Assembly (NCBI RefSeq): GCF_021502675.1
Contig: NZ_JAKFHA010000025.1
Coordinates: 1-64,000, forward strand
Direction: 5' to 3'
DNA: 64,000 nt
From: Yinghuangia soli
GTDB taxonomy: Bacteria; Actinomycetota; Actinomycetes; Streptomycetales; Streptomycetaceae
Position numbers and translations under genes: made by a program. Below the pieces are notes generated by a model. That model was not told the origin of the DNA. It made no database searches and saw only the letters and a program-made list of their open reading frames with translations. The stretch's first letter is position 1, and every line of letters starts with the position of its first letter. This document shows positions 22,826-27,644 of this stretch, piece by piece.

Positions 22826-23437
22826 CTACTTGTCGCAGGCGATGCCGTCGCCGTCGCGGTCCAGGCGCCGGCTGTAGCCGGGCTCGCCGCGCTTGATGGG
22901 CGCGACACCGGCGGCCTTGGCCTCCTCGCAGTTCCGGAAGTAGAAGCGCGTGGGTATCCAGGTCGGGAGCGTCGGCTTGTCCCCCGGCTTGGTGGTGGGC
23001 GGCATCGTGATCTTGGTGGGCGTGCCGGTCGGCTTCACCGGCGGCGGCTGCGTGGTCGGGTGCCCCTGGCAGCTCTCCTTCTTGGGCACCGCGCCGAGGT
23101 CCACCTTGTCCTTCGGGTTCGTCGGCCCGGGTGCGGGGGTCTGGTCGCAGACGCGCCACGTGGCGTCGGCCACCGGTGTGCGGTCCTTGCCCGCCGCGTC
23201 GTGGAAGGCGACCTCGGTGAAGCCCGCGGCCTTCACCGCGGCGACCGCGGCACCGAGATCCTGCCCGACGAGGTCGGGCATGTTGACCGTGGGCACCGCA
23301 CCGGCCTGGGACGGGGCTTCCCGGGTCGGCGTGGACGCGCCGCCCTTGTCCTTGCCGGACCCGCTGCTGCACCCCGCCACGGCGAACGAGGCGGCGACGA
23401 GCAGGGCCAGAGTCGTGCGTGCTGCGTGGTCGCGCAT
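22826..23437 (-). CDS. Lipoprotein with PASTA and Excalibur domains
   Basis: A 203-residue lipoprotein. Signal and lipobox VAGC are at about residue 22, then a PASTA-like repeat (NMPDLVGQDLGAAVAAVKAA, about 50-75). A Pro/Thr-rich linker follows, and a C-terminal Excalibur calcium-binding motif ends in DRDGDGIACDK. PASTA domains bind peptidoglycan or beta-lactams and Excalibur motifs bind calcium, so it probably works in the cell wall space. ATG 23437 has GGAGAA upstream. The 5' region holds the permuted tRNA-like element about 180 bp away on the same strand, and the downstream gene is the muramidase. Confidence 0.88.
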   Translation of the reverse strand: MRDHAARTTLALLVAASFAVAGCSSGSGKDKGGASTPTREAPSQAGAVPTVNMPDLVGQDLGAAVAAVKAAGFTEVAFHDAAGKDRTPVADATWRVCDQTPAPGPTNPKDKVDLGAVPKKESCQGHPTTQPPPVKPTGTPTKITMPPTTKPGDKPTLPTWIPTRFYFRNCEEAKAAGVAPIKRGEPGYSRRLDRDGDGIACDK

Positions 23438-23624
23438 GGTCGGCTTCTCCAGGAGGAACAATTCGGTTCCCGGAACCCTAGCGACGCGCTACCCGCAAAG
23501 ACATTCGAACCTGGGATTCCTGCGCGGACGGGACCGTGAAACCGCCCACATTGCGCTGCGTTGCCGGTAATTGGCATCGATCCCATATCGATTGCGGCGG
23601 CAGGTGGCGCCCGAGGACCAAGGC

Positions 23625-23728
23625 GACGGCGGTGAATAGTCCGGTGCTCTGCCAATTGAGCTACGGGCGACCCAAGCCGCCTGAGGGGACTTGAACCCCC
23701 AACCCCCGGATCCGAAGTAACCGCTGTC
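23625..23728 (-). tRNA. Circularly permuted tRNA-like element
   Basis: Reading the minus strand downward, the tRNA 3' half comes first: anticodon 3' stem TCCGG 23710-23706, variable loop GGGTT 23705-23701, T-stem GGGGG, T-loop TTCAAGT 23695-23689, CCCCT, then acceptor 3' strand CAGGCGG 23683-23677 and C73. After TTGG comes a G, then acceptor 5' strand TCGCCCG 23670-23664, TA, D-arm GCTC-AATTGGCA-GAGC 23661-23646, A26 and anticodon 5' stem CCGGA 23644-23640, then CT. The anticodon stems pair 5/5. The acceptor pairs 6/7 counting one U-G, plus an outer G-C. Invariant bases U8, A14, G18, G19, U33, U54, U55, C56 and A58 are present, and A15 can pair with U48. Outside the broken loop GCGGT 23724-23720 pairs with ACCGC 23633-23629, extended by GAC/GTC beyond one mismatch. 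No normal-order partner half is found. Whether it is expressed or charged is unknown. Confidence 0.6.
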
Positions 23729-23867
23729 TGCGCACCGGGCGCCCCCGTTGCCGCACGCTCACGGTAACGGGAAGCCGACCCGGACTCCGAGCCATTTTCC
23801 GGCCGGTGCGCACCTGGCCCGCCCCCGCGTCTCCCGGGGCGTCTCCCGGCGACTCCCCGCGGACATG

Positions 23868-23908
23868 CAGAAGCCCCTCTGCTGCTCCCGTAGGCAGAGG
23901 GGCTTCTG
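23868..23908 (-). terminator. Strong hairpin terminator after the P450 gene
   Basis: CAGAAGCCCCTCTGC (23868-23882) and GCAGAGGGGCTTCTG (23894-23908) form a perfect 15-bp stem with an 11-nt loop. It begins about 60 bp after the P450 stop codon on the minus strand and separates that gene from the tRNA-like element and lipoprotein. Confidence 0.88.
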
Positions 23909-23966: not shown

Positions 23967-25202
23967 TCAGCCGGTGTAGTTCACCTGGAGCTCCTTGATG
24001 CCGTTGATCCACGCGTGGCGCAGGCGGCGGGGCTCGGCGGCCTTGGTGATGTTCGGCATCGCGTTGGCGATGGCCTCGAACATCAGGTTGATCTCCATGC
24101 GGGCCAGGCTCGCGCCGAGGCAGAAGTGCGGGCCGCCGCCGCCGAAGCCCAGGTGCGGGTTCGGGTCGCGGAGGATGTCGAACTTGTCGGGGTTCTCGAA
24201 CACCAGCGGGTCGAAGTTCGCCGAGCTGTAGAAGATGCCGACGCGCTGGCCTTCCTTGATCTCCTGGCCGCCGAGCACGGTGTCGGCGGTGGCGGTGCGC
24301 TGGAAGGACATGACCGGCGAGGAGTAGCGGACGATCTCGTCCGCGGTGGTCTCCGGGCGCGACGTCTTGTACAGGTCCCACTGGTCGGGGTTGTCGAAGA
24401 ACGCCAGCATGCCGTGCGTGATCGCGTTGCGGGTGGTCTCGTTGCCGGCCACCGCGAGCAGCAGCACGAAGAAGCCGAACTCGTCGGAGGAGAGCGAGCC
24501 TTCGGACTCCGCGGCGACGAGCTTGGAGACGATGTCGTGCGCCGGGCAGGCCTTGCGGTTCTCGGCCATGCCCATCGAGTAGAGCATGACCTCGGCCGCG
24601 GCCTGCTGGCCGACCGAGGAGTCCTCGGCGTACTCCGGGTCGTCGTAGCCGAGCATCTTGTTCGACCACTCGAAGATCTTGCCGCGGTCCTCCTGCGGCA
24701 CGCCGATGAGCTCGGCGATGGCCTGGAGCGGGAGTTCGCAGGCGACCTGGGTGACGAAGTCGCCGCTGCCCGCCTTGATCGCGTCGTGCACGATGCGCTC
24801 GGCGCGGTCGGTCAGGGCGTCCTTGAGCGAGTTGATGGCGCGCGGGGTGAAGCCGCGCTGCACGATAGACCGCAGCCGGGTGTGCTCCGGCGGGTCGATG
24901 TTGATCATGATCAGCTTCTGCGCGTCGATGGAGTTGACGTCCATGCCCTCGGCGAAGCGGATGATCGCGGTGTTGCGGTTGGTCGAGTAGATGTCCGGCT
25001 TGGTGGACACCTCCTTGACGTCCGCGTGCCGGGTGACCAGCCAGTAGCCGTCGTCCCGGAAGTTGGAGACCTCGGGGGTCTGCGGGACCCACTTGACCGG
25101 CGCGGTCTGGCGGAGCTCGGCGAACTCCTCCAGCGGGAGGCGCTCGGTGTACAGGTCCGGGTCGGTCGGGTCGAAACCTTCCGGGAGAACCGGACACGTC
25201 AT
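23967..25202 (-). CDS. Cytochrome P450, CYP125-like
   Basis: A 411-residue soluble bacterial P450. The haem-binding loop FGGGGPHFCLGASLAR is near residue 350, the I-helix oxygen-activating motif AGNETTRN near 245, and the ExxR pair in EIVRYSSP near 285. The N-terminal part (LPEGFDPTDPDLYTERLPLEEFAELR) and NIDPPEHTRLR strongly resemble CYP125, the mycobacterial steroid C26/27 hydroxylase, but I infer the subfamily from memory. ATG 25202 has AGGAGG 6-7 nt upstream. No ferredoxin gene is adjacent. It is followed by a TetR gene upstream on the same strand and a divergent Rieske oxygenase, suggesting a small oxidative catabolic locus. Confidence 0.9.
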   Translation of the reverse strand: MTCPVLPEGFDPTDPDLYTERLPLEEFAELRQTAPVKWVPQTPEVSNFRDDGYWLVTRHADVKEVSTKPDIYSTNRNTAIIRFAEGMDVNSIDAQKLIMINIDPPEHTRLRSIVQRGFTPRAINSLKDALTDRAERIVHDAIKAGSGDFVTQVACELPLQAIAELIGVPQEDRGKIFEWSNKMLGYDDPEYAEDSSVGQQAAAEVMLYSMGMAENRKACPAHDIVSKLVAAESEGSLSSDEFGFFVLLLAVAGNETTRNAITHGMLAFFDNPDQWDLYKTSRPETTADEIVRYSSPVMSFQRTATADTVLGGQEIKEGQRVGIFYSSANFDPLVFENPDKFDILRDPNPHLGFGGGGPHFCLGASLARMEINLMFEAIANAMPNITKAAEPRRLRHAWINGIKELQVNYTG

Positions 25203-25257
25203 GGGAGCCTCCTCGGGGCGGGGTGCACAGGTGAATCCGGTGGTTCGGTCGCTCTGC

Positions 25258-25305
25258 GGTGCGGTGGTACGGCGGTGCGGCAGTGCAGTGGTGCGGTACT
25301 GCGGC
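25258..25305. repeat. Imperfect 16-bp tandem repeat between P450 and TetR genes
   Basis: Three 16-bp units beginning GGTGCGG lie at 25258-25273, 25274-25289 and 25290-25305, with degenerate continuation to about 25335. The 214-bp gap around it has no other feature I can support apart from the P450 ribosome binding site. Confidence 0.7.
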
Positions 25306-25416
25306 AGTGCTCTACGGCGTGCGGTGGTGCTGGGCGGGGCGGTGCGCGTCCCGGCCCGCCGGGACGGGGCGTGCAGAGACGTTTTTGTTGCCGTGCCGGG
25401 CAGGTCCGCGGGGGTG

Positions 25417-25995
25417 TTACTCGGGGTCCGCCGCGGCCGGTCTGGCACGGCGCGGCGCGAGCAGCCGCCGGACGATGTCCAGCAGCACGCGGCGCAGTTC
25501 GTCGTCGGGCAGGTGGGTGAAGACCGCCACGGCGGAGTAGATGCCGCCCATCGCGACGGTCGAGGCGACCCGCTGCTCGATGGGGCGTTCGGTGTCGTCC
25601 AGGACGCTGCGGACGCGCTCGGTGATCGATTCGAGCCGCGGCCGTATCGCCCGGTGCGTGCCGACCGAGACGTCGCGGTCGAGGATGACCGCGAGTGTCC
25701 GGTAGCGCAGCAGGAAGTCGACGTACCCCTCGAACAGCACGCGTTGCCGGACCGCCTGGCCCTTGCGCCGCTCGGCCGTGTCCAGGACGCGGTCGAGGTC
25801 GTTGAGGGCGGGGCGCAGCAGGGCGTCGAGGAGCTCGTCCTTCGTGCGGAAGTGGTAGTACAGCGCGGCCTTGGTGACGCCGACGCGGTCCGCGATGGCC
25901 TGCAGGGAGGTGCCGGCGAAGCCGTGCTCGCCGAAGAGCTCGACGGCGGCGGACAGCACCTTGTCGTAGGTGTCCTCCATTGCCGGTGCGGCCAT
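25417..25995 (-). CDS. TetR-family transcriptional regulator
   Basis: A 192-residue TetR-type regulator. The DNA-binding helices are textbook (KVLSAAVELFGEHGFAGTSL, VTKAALYYHFRTKDELL), and the C-terminal domain is helical and of AcrR/FadR-like size. ATG 25995 follows GGGGAGGG; the frame upstream to 26088 is not needed. It sits between the P450 gene (same strand, downstream) and the divergent Rieske oxygenase. It probably controls both through the upstream region, where an imperfect palindrome is found at 26083-26104. Confidence 0.9.
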   Translation of the reverse strand: MAAPAMEDTYDKVLSAAVELFGEHGFAGTSLQAIADRVGVTKAALYYHFRTKDELLDALLRPALNDLDRVLDTAERRKGQAVRQRVLFEGYVDFLLRYRTLAVILDRDVSVGTHRAIRPRLESITERVRSVLDDTERPIEQRVASTVAMGGIYSAVAVFTHLPDDELRRVLLDIVRRLLAPRRARPAAADPE

Positions 25996-26306
25996 CGTCC
26001 CTCCCCTCGGGCTGTGCGGTTTTGCATGGCGTGCGGTCCGGCGTGCGGTCCGCGGCATGAACGTATGTCGAAGGCTGCCGAATGACAAGCCTGATTGGTC
26101 GTCAATTTTCGTCGCGGCCCTGATTCTCCGGGGTTTCCTGCTTGCCGCACGGCAAGTTGGACGACAGCGTGTCCGTGTCCTCGCGGTCGGTGATCATCGG
26201 TCGCATAGCGCGACCCTTGTATGCGCCGGGCCTGCGTGGCACCCTGCGCCCGCCGGCGTGCAGACGCCCAGGCAGGCCATGGCAGGCCCCGGCAGGGAGG
26301 CGCAAG
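25996..26306. other. Divergent control region, TetR / Rieske
   Basis: A 311-bp region without a gene. It contains a lower-GC core (26070-26110: GAATGACAAGCCTGATTGG...) with the palindrome at 26083-26104, where promoters for both directions are most likely. The AGGGAGG at 26294-26300 is the Rieske ribosome binding site. Confidence 0.6.
26083..26104. promoter_or_regulatory. Imperfect 22-bp palindrome, candidate TetR operator
   Basis: The half-sites TGACAAGCC and (reverse complement) TGACGACCA share TGAC-A-C spacing around the centre. The site lies in the AT-richer core between the divergent TetR and Rieske genes. Assignment to the TetR protein rests on position only. Confidence 0.4.
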
Positions 26307-27644
26307 ATGACCGCGACCCAGGACCACCACGCGATCGCCGATGTGCGGCTGCACCAGGGGGTGGACGACGGCACGGCGACGGGTCCGGTGGATGCGTCCG
26401 CGGGGCTGGTGCGGGTGCCCGCGCACCGGTACACCTCCTCGGAGTTCGCGGAGCTGGAGATGCAGCGGCTGTGGCCGCGGACCTGGCAGCTGGCGTGCTG
26501 TGTGGACCATGTCGCGGCGCCGGGCGACTGGTTCGAGTACCGGGTCGGGCCGTATGCGGTGGTGATCGTGCGGGATGCCGGCGGGGAGCTGCGGGCTTTC
26601 CAGAACGCGTGCCGACACCGGGGCAACAGCCTGTGCAGCGGCTCGGGTTCGGGGCTGACCGAGCTCAAGTGCGGCTACCACGGCTGGACGTGGGACCTGG
26701 CCGGGCAGCTGCGGCGGGTGCCGGGCCGCAAGGGCTTCGGCAATCTGAAGATGTCGGAATTCCCGCTGCTGGCCGCCCGGGTGGACACATGGGGCCCGTT
26801 CGTCTTCGTCAATCTCGATCTGCAGGCGCCGGACCTGGACACCTACCTGGAGGCGCTGCCGGCGGACGCGTCGTGGGCGCGCCTCGAGGAGTTCCGCTGC
26901 ACGGCGTCGGTGGTCGGCGACGTCGCGGCGAACTGGAAGACGGTCGCGGACGGCTTCAGCGAGACGTACCACATCCAGACGCTGCACCCGGAGCTGCTGC
27001 GCAACATCGACGACGTCAACGCGCCGCAGCGGCTGTGGGGCCACACCGGCAAGTCCGAGCAGGTGTACGGGCTGGCCAGCCCGCGCTTCAAGGACGGCCT
27101 GCCGGACCAGGAGGTCTGGGACTCGTTCATCGTCACGCAGGGCCAGCGGATGGGGATCGCCGAGCCGGGCCCGATGCCGGAGATCCCGGAGGGGCAGACC
27201 CTCATGGACGTGATCGCCGAGCGGATCCGGGCGCATGTCGCGAAGTCCGGCACCGATCTGTCGGGCTTCGACACGGACCGGATCATGCGGCTGCACCAGT
27301 ACCAGCTGTTCCCGAACTGCTCGGTGCTGCTCACCGCGGACACGCTCAGCGCGCTGGTGGCCCGCCCGGGGCCGACGCCGGGCACCGCCGAGATGGGCAT
27401 CTTCGCGTTCCGGCGCGCGGCGTCGGCGGATGCGCCGTACGCCAAGCCGATGGACCTGCGGGTGGCCTTCGAGGAGCTGGACCTGGGCTACGTGCTCAAC
27501 CAGGACGCGGCGGTGCTGGCCGGCATCCAGCGGGGTCTCACGCAGCCGGGGCTGACCGAGATCGTGCTGTCCCAGGAGGAGAAGCGCGTCATCAACACGC
27601 ACCGCAACCTGGAGCTGTACCTGGGCATCGGTCCGCAGGACTGA
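26307..27644 (+). CDS. Rieske-type ring-hydroxylating oxygenase, alpha subunit
   Basis: A 445-residue non-haem iron oxygenase. The Rieske [2Fe-2S] site is complete: CRHRG near residue 99 and CGYHGWTW near 121. The catalytic domain has the mononuclear iron site in ADGFSETYHIQTLHPEL (about residues 216-232), where the two histidines and a later Asp bind iron. No beta subunit, ferredoxin or reductase gene is adjacent, so it is likely a homo-oligomeric enzyme fed by shared electron carriers. ATG 26307 follows AGGGAGG. It is divergent from TetR and followed by a zinc dehydrogenase, which suggests hydroxylation then oxidation of one substrate class. Confidence 0.9.
   Translation: MTATQDHHAIADVRLHQGVDDGTATGPVDASAGLVRVPAHRYTSSEFAELEMQRLWPRTWQLACCVDHVAAPGDWFEYRVGPYAVVIVRDAGGELRAFQNACRHRGNSLCSGSGSGLTELKCGYHGWTWDLAGQLRRVPGRKGFGNLKMSEFPLLAARVDTWGPFVFVNLDLQAPDLDTYLEALPADASWARLEEFRCTASVVGDVAANWKTVADGFSETYHIQTLHPELLRNIDDVNAPQRLWGHTGKSEQVYGLASPRFKDGLPDQEVWDSFIVTQGQRMGIAEPGPMPEIPEGQTLMDVIAERIRAHVAKSGTDLSGFDTDRIMRLHQYQLFPNCSVLLTADTLSALVARPGPTPGTAEMGIFAFRRAASADAPYAKPMDLRVAFEELDLGYVLNQDAAVLAGIQRGLTQPGLTEIVLSQEEKRVINTHRNLELYLGIGPQD

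Follow-up and report, generated by a model that had tools for sequence, protein, structure and literature searches.

The window (the whole 64-kb stretch of DNA analyzed here, on contig C18 of the Yinghuangia soli genome) carries, in the space separating a P450 gene from an Excalibur/PASTA lipoprotein gene, a minus-strand element whose parts are listed in Table 1. Read on the minus strand from 23728 to 23625, these parts are a flank strand, an anticodon-stem strand, the T arm, an acceptor strand, a short linker, the second acceptor strand, the D arm, the other anticodon-stem strand, and the second flank strand. A first-pass annotation had read this range as a circularly permuted tRNA gene, and much of what it described is there: the 3' half of a tRNA does precede the 5' half, the anticodon-type stem CCGGA/TCCGG is matched at all five of its pairs, and the acceptor-type strands (CAGGCGG at 23683-23677 and TCGCCCG at 23670-23664) pair at six of seven positions including one U-G, with a single A-C mismatch. 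The T loop has its uridines and the D loop is tRNA-like, A15 and U48 are placed such that they can pair across the two halves, and the flanks outside the split loop do pair, GAC.A.GCGG with CCGC.C.GTC, with paired changes in relatives. The closing stem was found outside 23625-23728, so the range annotated at first covers about three quarters of the element. In all, 35 of the 36 modeled pairs are intact in the window copy.

Table 1. Features of the window element and its upstream hexamer (window coordinates).
Feature	Position	Strand	Sequence	Remark
Weak -10-like hexamer	23761..23766	-	TACCGT	At -20 relative to the start of the model
Whole YrlA-type Y RNA, predicted transcript body	23605..23745	-		About 140 nt; from the R2 and Rfam RF02553 matches
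Closing stem, 5' strand	23736..23743	-	GGCGCCCG	Pairs with 23606-23613
Conserved core	23714..23736	-	GGTGCGCAGACAGCGGTTACTTC	Many invariant or near-invariant alignment columns; motif also precedes Ro60 in named actinomycetes
Basal (flank) helix, 5' strand	23721..23728	-	GAC.A.GCGG	Pairs with 23632-23625
tRNA-like anticodon stem, strand 39-43	23706..23710	-	TCCGG	5/5 pairs with double changes (A1, A3)
T arm	23684..23700	-	GGGGG-TTCAAGT-CCCCT	Loop TTCAAGT; stem 5/5; every cell paired in A1 and A3
Acceptor-like hairpin	23664..23683	-		Capped by TTGG; 7/8 pairs in hairpin form; homologous stems end in short loops
D arm	23646..23661	-	GCTC...GAGC	100% of cells paired (A1, A3), almost invariant
tRNA-like anticodon stem, strand 27-31	23640..23644	-	CCGGA	5/5 pairs with 23710-23706
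Basal (flank) helix, 3' strand	23625..23632	-	CCGC.C.GTC	Pairs with 23728-23721
Closing stem, 3' strand	23606..23613	-	CGGGCGCC	8 bp with 23743-23736

Beside the locus, at 23970-27641, genes for the P450, a TetR-family regulator, and a Rieske/ring-hydroxylating oxygenase are clustered. A long inverted repeat (AGAAGCCCCTCTGC / GCAGAGGGGCTTCT) at 23869-23907, downstream of the P450 gene, was spotted by eye and was not reported by the terminator scan; it is perhaps the P450 terminator. On the other side, a block at 23472-23511 upstream of the lipoprotein gene contains GGTTCGAATG and GCGTCGCTAGGGTTCC on the minus strand; the block is kept in the sister species (G002), and GCGTCGCTAGGGTTCC is found in G001 as well. 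This block is probably the promoter of the lipoprotein gene and not a remnant of a tRNA.

Copies of the element were sought with blastn in 100 genomes, the window's own (G000) and 99 relatives. Contiguous matches spanned the two halves together with the linker; the one in G032, for instance, has 76% identity over query positions 2-140. Many other matches in the same list were ordinary tRNA genes. The fold is established by covariation in two alignments, A1 (24 copies, aligned on sequence only) and A3 (46 copies fitted to the model and hence leaning towards the structure), so that the permuted arrangement with compensatory changes, which the first-pass annotation had proposed looking for in related genomes, was found in both. 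Within A1, 95.1% of cells were paired versus 81.2% in shuffles, pairing fell below 50% when partners were slid by 1 to 3 columns, and both-sided changes occurred at 21 of 36 pairs, with a covariation score of 0.392 versus 0.133 for shuffles and at most 0.099 for the slid controls; in the 46 structure-fitted sequences of A3, both-sided changes occurred at 29 of 36 pairs. Paired changes support every helix except the near-invariant D stem. They include the flank helix, which is paired in 98.2% of A1 cells and doubly changed at three of its seven pairs, and the closing stem, with double changes at 4/8 pairs in A1 and 7/8 in A3. The outer core has the consensus GGTGCG.AG....CGG.TACTTC in the 24-copy alignment, where the T and D arms are near-invariant.

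The covariance model R2, built from 22 copies with none from the window genome, matched the window copy at 23746-23602 with 128.7 bits (E 7.5e-27), and its second-best match in the 64 kb scored 15.9 bits. Folding the minus-strand RNA by itself, also proposed at first, did not return the proposed structure: the minimum-energy fold was a different one (z -0.87; 41 of 200 shuffles were as stable). Support for the predicted fold is comparative. The 15-48 tertiary (Levitt) pair covaries across family copies as well: among 124 parsed of 147 distinct copies, which are related to one another, A15/U48 was found in 43, G15/C48 in 66, a mixed pair in 3, and another combination in 12. The tRNA-like core is hence probably preserved in three dimensions.

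ARAGORN called no tRNA in the 64-kb window, and Rfam at gathering thresholds gave no match there. At a relaxed threshold, the element proved homologous to YrlA: Rfam model RF02553 matched the window copy at 23727-23620 from end to end (model positions 1-114; 42.4 bits, E 3.1e-8). The RF02553 gathering score, a curation threshold and not a biological feature, is 69 bits; falling short of it, the window copy receives no default annotation. Fifteen further loci (14 from relatives and the genome's own second copy) likewise all match YrlA at E <= 1, from 3.6e-10 at best to 0.012 for the weakest (L009), with the own second copy (L002) matching at model positions 24-84 only (E 0.0026); none of the 15 reaches the gathering score, the highest being 56.2 bits.

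PMC8394870, which cites the Salmonella YrlA structure as PDB 6CU1, describes YrlA as a tRNA mimic with an Rsr-binding basal stem and a domain that looks like the D, T, and acceptor arms of a tRNA; this domain is modified by DusA and TruB and binds PNPase. PMC7790460 names the operon rsr-yrlBA-rtcBA, credits the PNPase tether to work in Deinococcus, and cites Chen et al. 2014 for the tRNA-like domain. The element has the same order of parts as Salmonella YrlA and RF02553: a basal stem, an anticodon-type stem, a T arm, a capped acceptor-like hairpin, and a D arm. A basal stem joining the 5' and 3' ends and carrying conserved sequence is present, as is a tRNA-like module made up of a T arm, a D arm, and a sealed acceptor-like arm. 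As with YrlA, the model matches over its whole length and the family is tied to Ro60 genes; unlike Rfam YrlA, the window copy scores under threshold and sits away from rsr, and the conserved core and closing stem are features of the actinomycete copies that differ from YrlA of RF02553. We conclude that the element is very probably a YrlA-type bacterial Y RNA, sited away from its Ro60 gene. Weighing against this identity are the sub-threshold Rfam score, the single-sequence fold, and, as described below, the displaced hexamer with no consensus promoter or terminator, the sister species lacking the RNA, one relative with a good match but no detectable Ro60, and core matches in named genomes with no Ro60 on their stretch. 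The conserved core at 23714-23736 is likely part of the Ro60-binding region, and, by analogy with these systems, the window copy would be transcribed, bound by Ro60, and used to tether PNPase. In the same clusters, YrlA copies are adjoined by compact Y RNAs, 70-76 nt long in 12 of 16 pattern matches, which share the conserved core and the type of closing stem with the YrlA copies but mostly are without the tRNA-like module; these may correspond to Salmonella yrlB.

The family is linked to Ro60. A gene with the TROVE domain of Ro60 was found in 43 of the 44 genomes with a strong match to model R1 and was absent from 53 of the 56 genomes without one, where a strong match means E <= 1e-12, R1 was built partly from sequences of some of the genomes tested, and the counts ignore kinship. 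The three TROVE genomes lacking a strong match (G015, G069, and G085) have a weaker one upstream of Ro60 and on its strand. The one exception in the other direction, G023, carries a YrlA-type RNA of 82 bits (L079:4772-4929) and no detectable Ro60; with the window genome's own Ro60 as query, no match was obtained in G023 and none in the 14 TROVE-negative genomes given, whereas the Ro60 of G015 was recovered. A scan of named genomes for the core motif returned at least 118 stretches, with 80 titles among the matches listed, all of them actinobacterial as read. One stretch, L187 from Kitasatospora, contains the 400 bases compared from contig C35 of G056, a genome of the same family as the window genome, in keeping with a likely place of the latter in the Streptomycetaceae. 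In the 118 stretches obtained, 118 of 149 core matches share the fetched stretch with a Ro60 gene, and all 118 lie on its strand, upstream, and within 2.5 kb of it (median 211 nt); the remaining 31 have no Ro60 on their stretch, 15 of these with at least 2.5 kb of sequence downstream. Y RNAs of this family stand beside Ro60 genes in many actinomycetes. The core motif was also seen in 89 stretches of IMG/VR viral contigs (L278-L360 among them); in 83 of these stretches, 108 of 119 core matches come with a Ro60 gene, prophage and host flank not being told apart.

A mobile element was considered as the source of the window copy and set aside: plasmids gave no match at E 1e-3, and among phages 21 records matched, none over more than 80% of the query. 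Of the best 20 of these 21 records, 18 matched on annotated tRNA-Asn genes and the other two were Gordonia phage Sixama. The Sixama genome (MN484601.1; L367:1466-1605) contains an unannotated YrlA match that covers the whole model (46.8 bits, E 2.2e-9); it lies inside the phage tRNA array, and a gene with the annotation Ro-like RNA binding protein is about 1.3 kb away. Sixama appears to carry a phage-borne pair of Ro60 and Y RNA, and the proximity of the YrlA match to the Ro-like gene supports our reading of the family.

In the window genome, a single TROVE gene was detected (C27:32358-32585 at the domain), encoding a 532-amino-acid Ro60 protein (TROVE E 3.2e-15, with a sub-threshold VWA match). 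Two compact Y RNAs and one YrlA copy, the genome's own second copy, lie directly upstream of it. The window copy is on contig C18 and this only detected Ro60 on C27; it is therefore not adjacent to rsr, and this placement is its least expected feature. Two further copies lie away from Ro60, one on C42 (62 bits; L039:1501-1646), a divergent YrlA-like candidate whose acceptor hairpin is capped by TTCG, and the other, compact, on C33 (40 bits; L042:1501-1619), so that the genome has one detected Ro60 for about six candidate Y RNAs, of which three lie away from rsr. A match on C9 proved to be a tandem pair of tRNA-Ala genes; R1 matches of 33 bits or less were also seen on contigs C45, C12, C2, C67, and C29.

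The placement raises the question of whether the window copy is a relocated Y RNA that is silent or decaying, a variant compatible with its identity as a Y RNA. In G002 the same two genes are neighbors, the P450 part being 87.8% identical at the nucleotide level over 1079 bases, and the space between them contains no Y RNA (best score 9 bits with filters off), which means that the copy was either gained in the window lineage or lost in the sister. Decay would also fit the displaced -10-like hexamer: of 13 Y RNAs chosen for having no other Y RNA closely preceding them, 11 have a TANNNT hexamer 8-10 nt ahead of the model start, the exceptions being G074 at -34 and the window copy at -20; 9 of the 13 come from one genus, making hexamer placement weak evidence. 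A consensus scan of the window copy found no sigma-70 promoter and no terminator. Against decay stand the near-complete set of modeled pairs and an R2 score that exceeds that of the rsr-linked copy of the same genome (128.7 versus 114.1 bits), and we consider a silent or decaying copy unlikely, albeit the alternative that deserves the most weight.

The first-pass annotation had also allowed for a tRNA mimic within a leader RNA. The mimic part comes close to the YrlA identity. The leader part, in which the RNA would act in cis to control the downstream lipoprotein gene (22826-23437), draws on the position of the RNA upstream of that gene and on the same strand; it is improbable, given that the conserved promoter-like block GCGTCGCTAGGGTTCC lies between RNA and gene in the window genome and also precedes the gene in G001 and G002, two loci where no Y RNA was matched at E <= 0.1.

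A permuted tRNA gene is a very unlikely reading. Such a gene would be cut at the flank helix and circularized, and RNase P and RNase Z would open the acceptor to give an Arg-type tRNA. The permuted order with its short linker, the tRNA core bases, the flank helix, and the Levitt pair all fit, and the literature on permuted tRNA genes in Cyanidioschyzon and Thermofilum (PMC3218864, PMC3978253) describes the same combination of a 3' half placed first, a short linker, and pairing flanks, with 1-74 bp between the halves of known permuted tRNAs (PMC3978253). Unlike those genes, the family to which the window copy belongs has no constant anticodon loop, has its acceptor sealed by a variable hairpin, and tracks Ro60. 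The acceptor end is one hairpin of 5-9 bp with at most one mismatch and a short loop in all 23 copies that could be parsed out of 24; in a larger set a closed acceptor stem of 5-10 bp was found in 116 of 144 rows, the other 28 being unparsed or failing the rule, with TCG, TTCG, TCCG, GAAA, and GCGA among the loops. With the acceptor hairpin closed and of varying length in relatives, there are no tRNA ends to mature. Joining the halves had been expected to give an Arg-type anticodon loop; the spacer between the core and the anticodon stem, on the 5' side, is 2-12 nt long in 45 of 46 copies parsed, and the 3' side is variable too, so a common 7-nt loop cannot be built. The window genome has 54 tRNA matches, including ordinary tRNA-Arg genes with anticodons ACG, TCT, CCG, and CCT, which leaves no obvious gap for the locus to fill, and the Rfam tRNA model reaches just 13.4 bits (E 7.5) for a stretch that overlaps the element. 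PMC3978253 further reports that eubacterial tRNA introns are self-splicing, without a splicing endonuclease. A flank helix does exist where a permuted tRNA gene would have its bulge-helix-bulge junction; it fits a Y stem, and what had been likened to the exon-flanking helix of a permuted pre-tRNA is probably part of the basal stem of the Y RNA. The permuted tRNA gene is rejected on the sealed, variable acceptor stems, the inconstant anticodon loop, and the normal tRNA-Arg set, and the tempting but wrong claim of such a gene in a bacterium is thereby removed.

Least probable of all is an eroded tandem tRNA pair with only the inner halves remaining: tandem tRNA-Asn pairs do reach about 59-60 bits with R1 (L028 and L034, the only ones confirmed by ARAGORN), but these match model positions 23-126 only (R1 matches up to about 61 bits in this range were treated as tandem tRNAs and excluded from the Y RNAs), and the reading fails on the permuted order and flanking stems, which are conserved with double changes over 24 and 46 sequences.

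Returning to the YrlA-type Y RNA, its mechanism can be sketched by analogy with Deinococcus and Salmonella. The basal stem with its conserved sequence would be held by the one Ro60 (Rsr) detected in the cell. Above it sits a module that has a tRNA's secondary structure and core tertiary structure, entered through the anticodon stem and sealed at its acceptor end by a hairpin loop; this arrangement explains why the element reads as a circularly permuted tRNA. The tRNA-shaped head may dock a tRNA-binding effector, PNPase in those organisms, and the module may be recognized by tRNA-modifying enzymes, such that the Y RNA would serve as a tether and gate on Ro60 in the decay of structured RNA. For the window copy, we regard the case for this tether mechanism as evenly balanced.

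Some copies retain more of a tRNA than others. A canonical anticodon loop, CTNNNAA, directly precedes strand 39-43 in 40 of 143 parsed copies, whereas shifting the frame by 1-4 bases either way gave 0 to 5; the 144 rows (143 distinct) comprise 46 from relatives and 98 from 68 of the at least 118 named stretches, and since copies are related, the count cannot be read as a probability. In 37 of the 40 the loop is CTNNTAA, with T as the third anticodon base, and positions 34 and 35 vary. The genome's own rsr-linked copy (L038:1501-1647) has CTCATAA, and other examples are L046:1742-1888, L073:1258-1404, and L177:2243-2389; the window copy has no CTNNNAA. In a tree the copies with the loop were scattered and did not form one clade (best clade 13/36, support 0.7). 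ANN-decoding tRNAs carry t6A37. Together with the number of candidates per Ro60 in the window genome, a speculative reading is that actinomycetes combine one Ro60 with dispersed, interchangeable tRNA-shaped adaptors, each perhaps recruiting a different tRNA-binding effector or modifying enzyme; the rsr-linked adaptors with a full anticodon loop, mostly CUNNUAA, would then look as if they mimicked ANN-decoding, t6A-type tRNAs. We hold this doubtful; genomes with several Y RNAs are suited to asking whether different adaptors give one Ro60 different partners.

YrlA in actinobacteria is already in print. The literature gives YrlA as predicted in some mycobacteria as acquired genes (PMC9569102) and in one Mycolicibacterium prophage (PMC8190616), and credits a Y RNA of Mycobacterium smegmatis to Chen et al. 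2014 (PMC4726728). In the portions of the YrlA, Ro60, and Y RNA literature available, actinomycete Y RNAs away from rsr were not recognized; the main papers could still describe dispersed copies. Our results indicate that actinomycete Y RNAs, those tested falling under the Rfam threshold, are frequent neighbors of Ro60 and in some cases are encoded far from it, and that a search restricted to the rsr neighborhood would miss the dispersed copies. ARAGORN called tRNAs inside the YrlA-type RNAs of relatives (tRNA-Ile at L015:1645-1717 and tRNA-Ser at L020:1530-1612 and L031:1943-2015), and some annotated tRNA genes may therefore be parts of Y RNAs. In G062 (L080) and G066 (L084), too, YrlA copies lie away from rsr, and there they have common neighbors that, judged by their translations, resemble a sugar ABC transporter operon.
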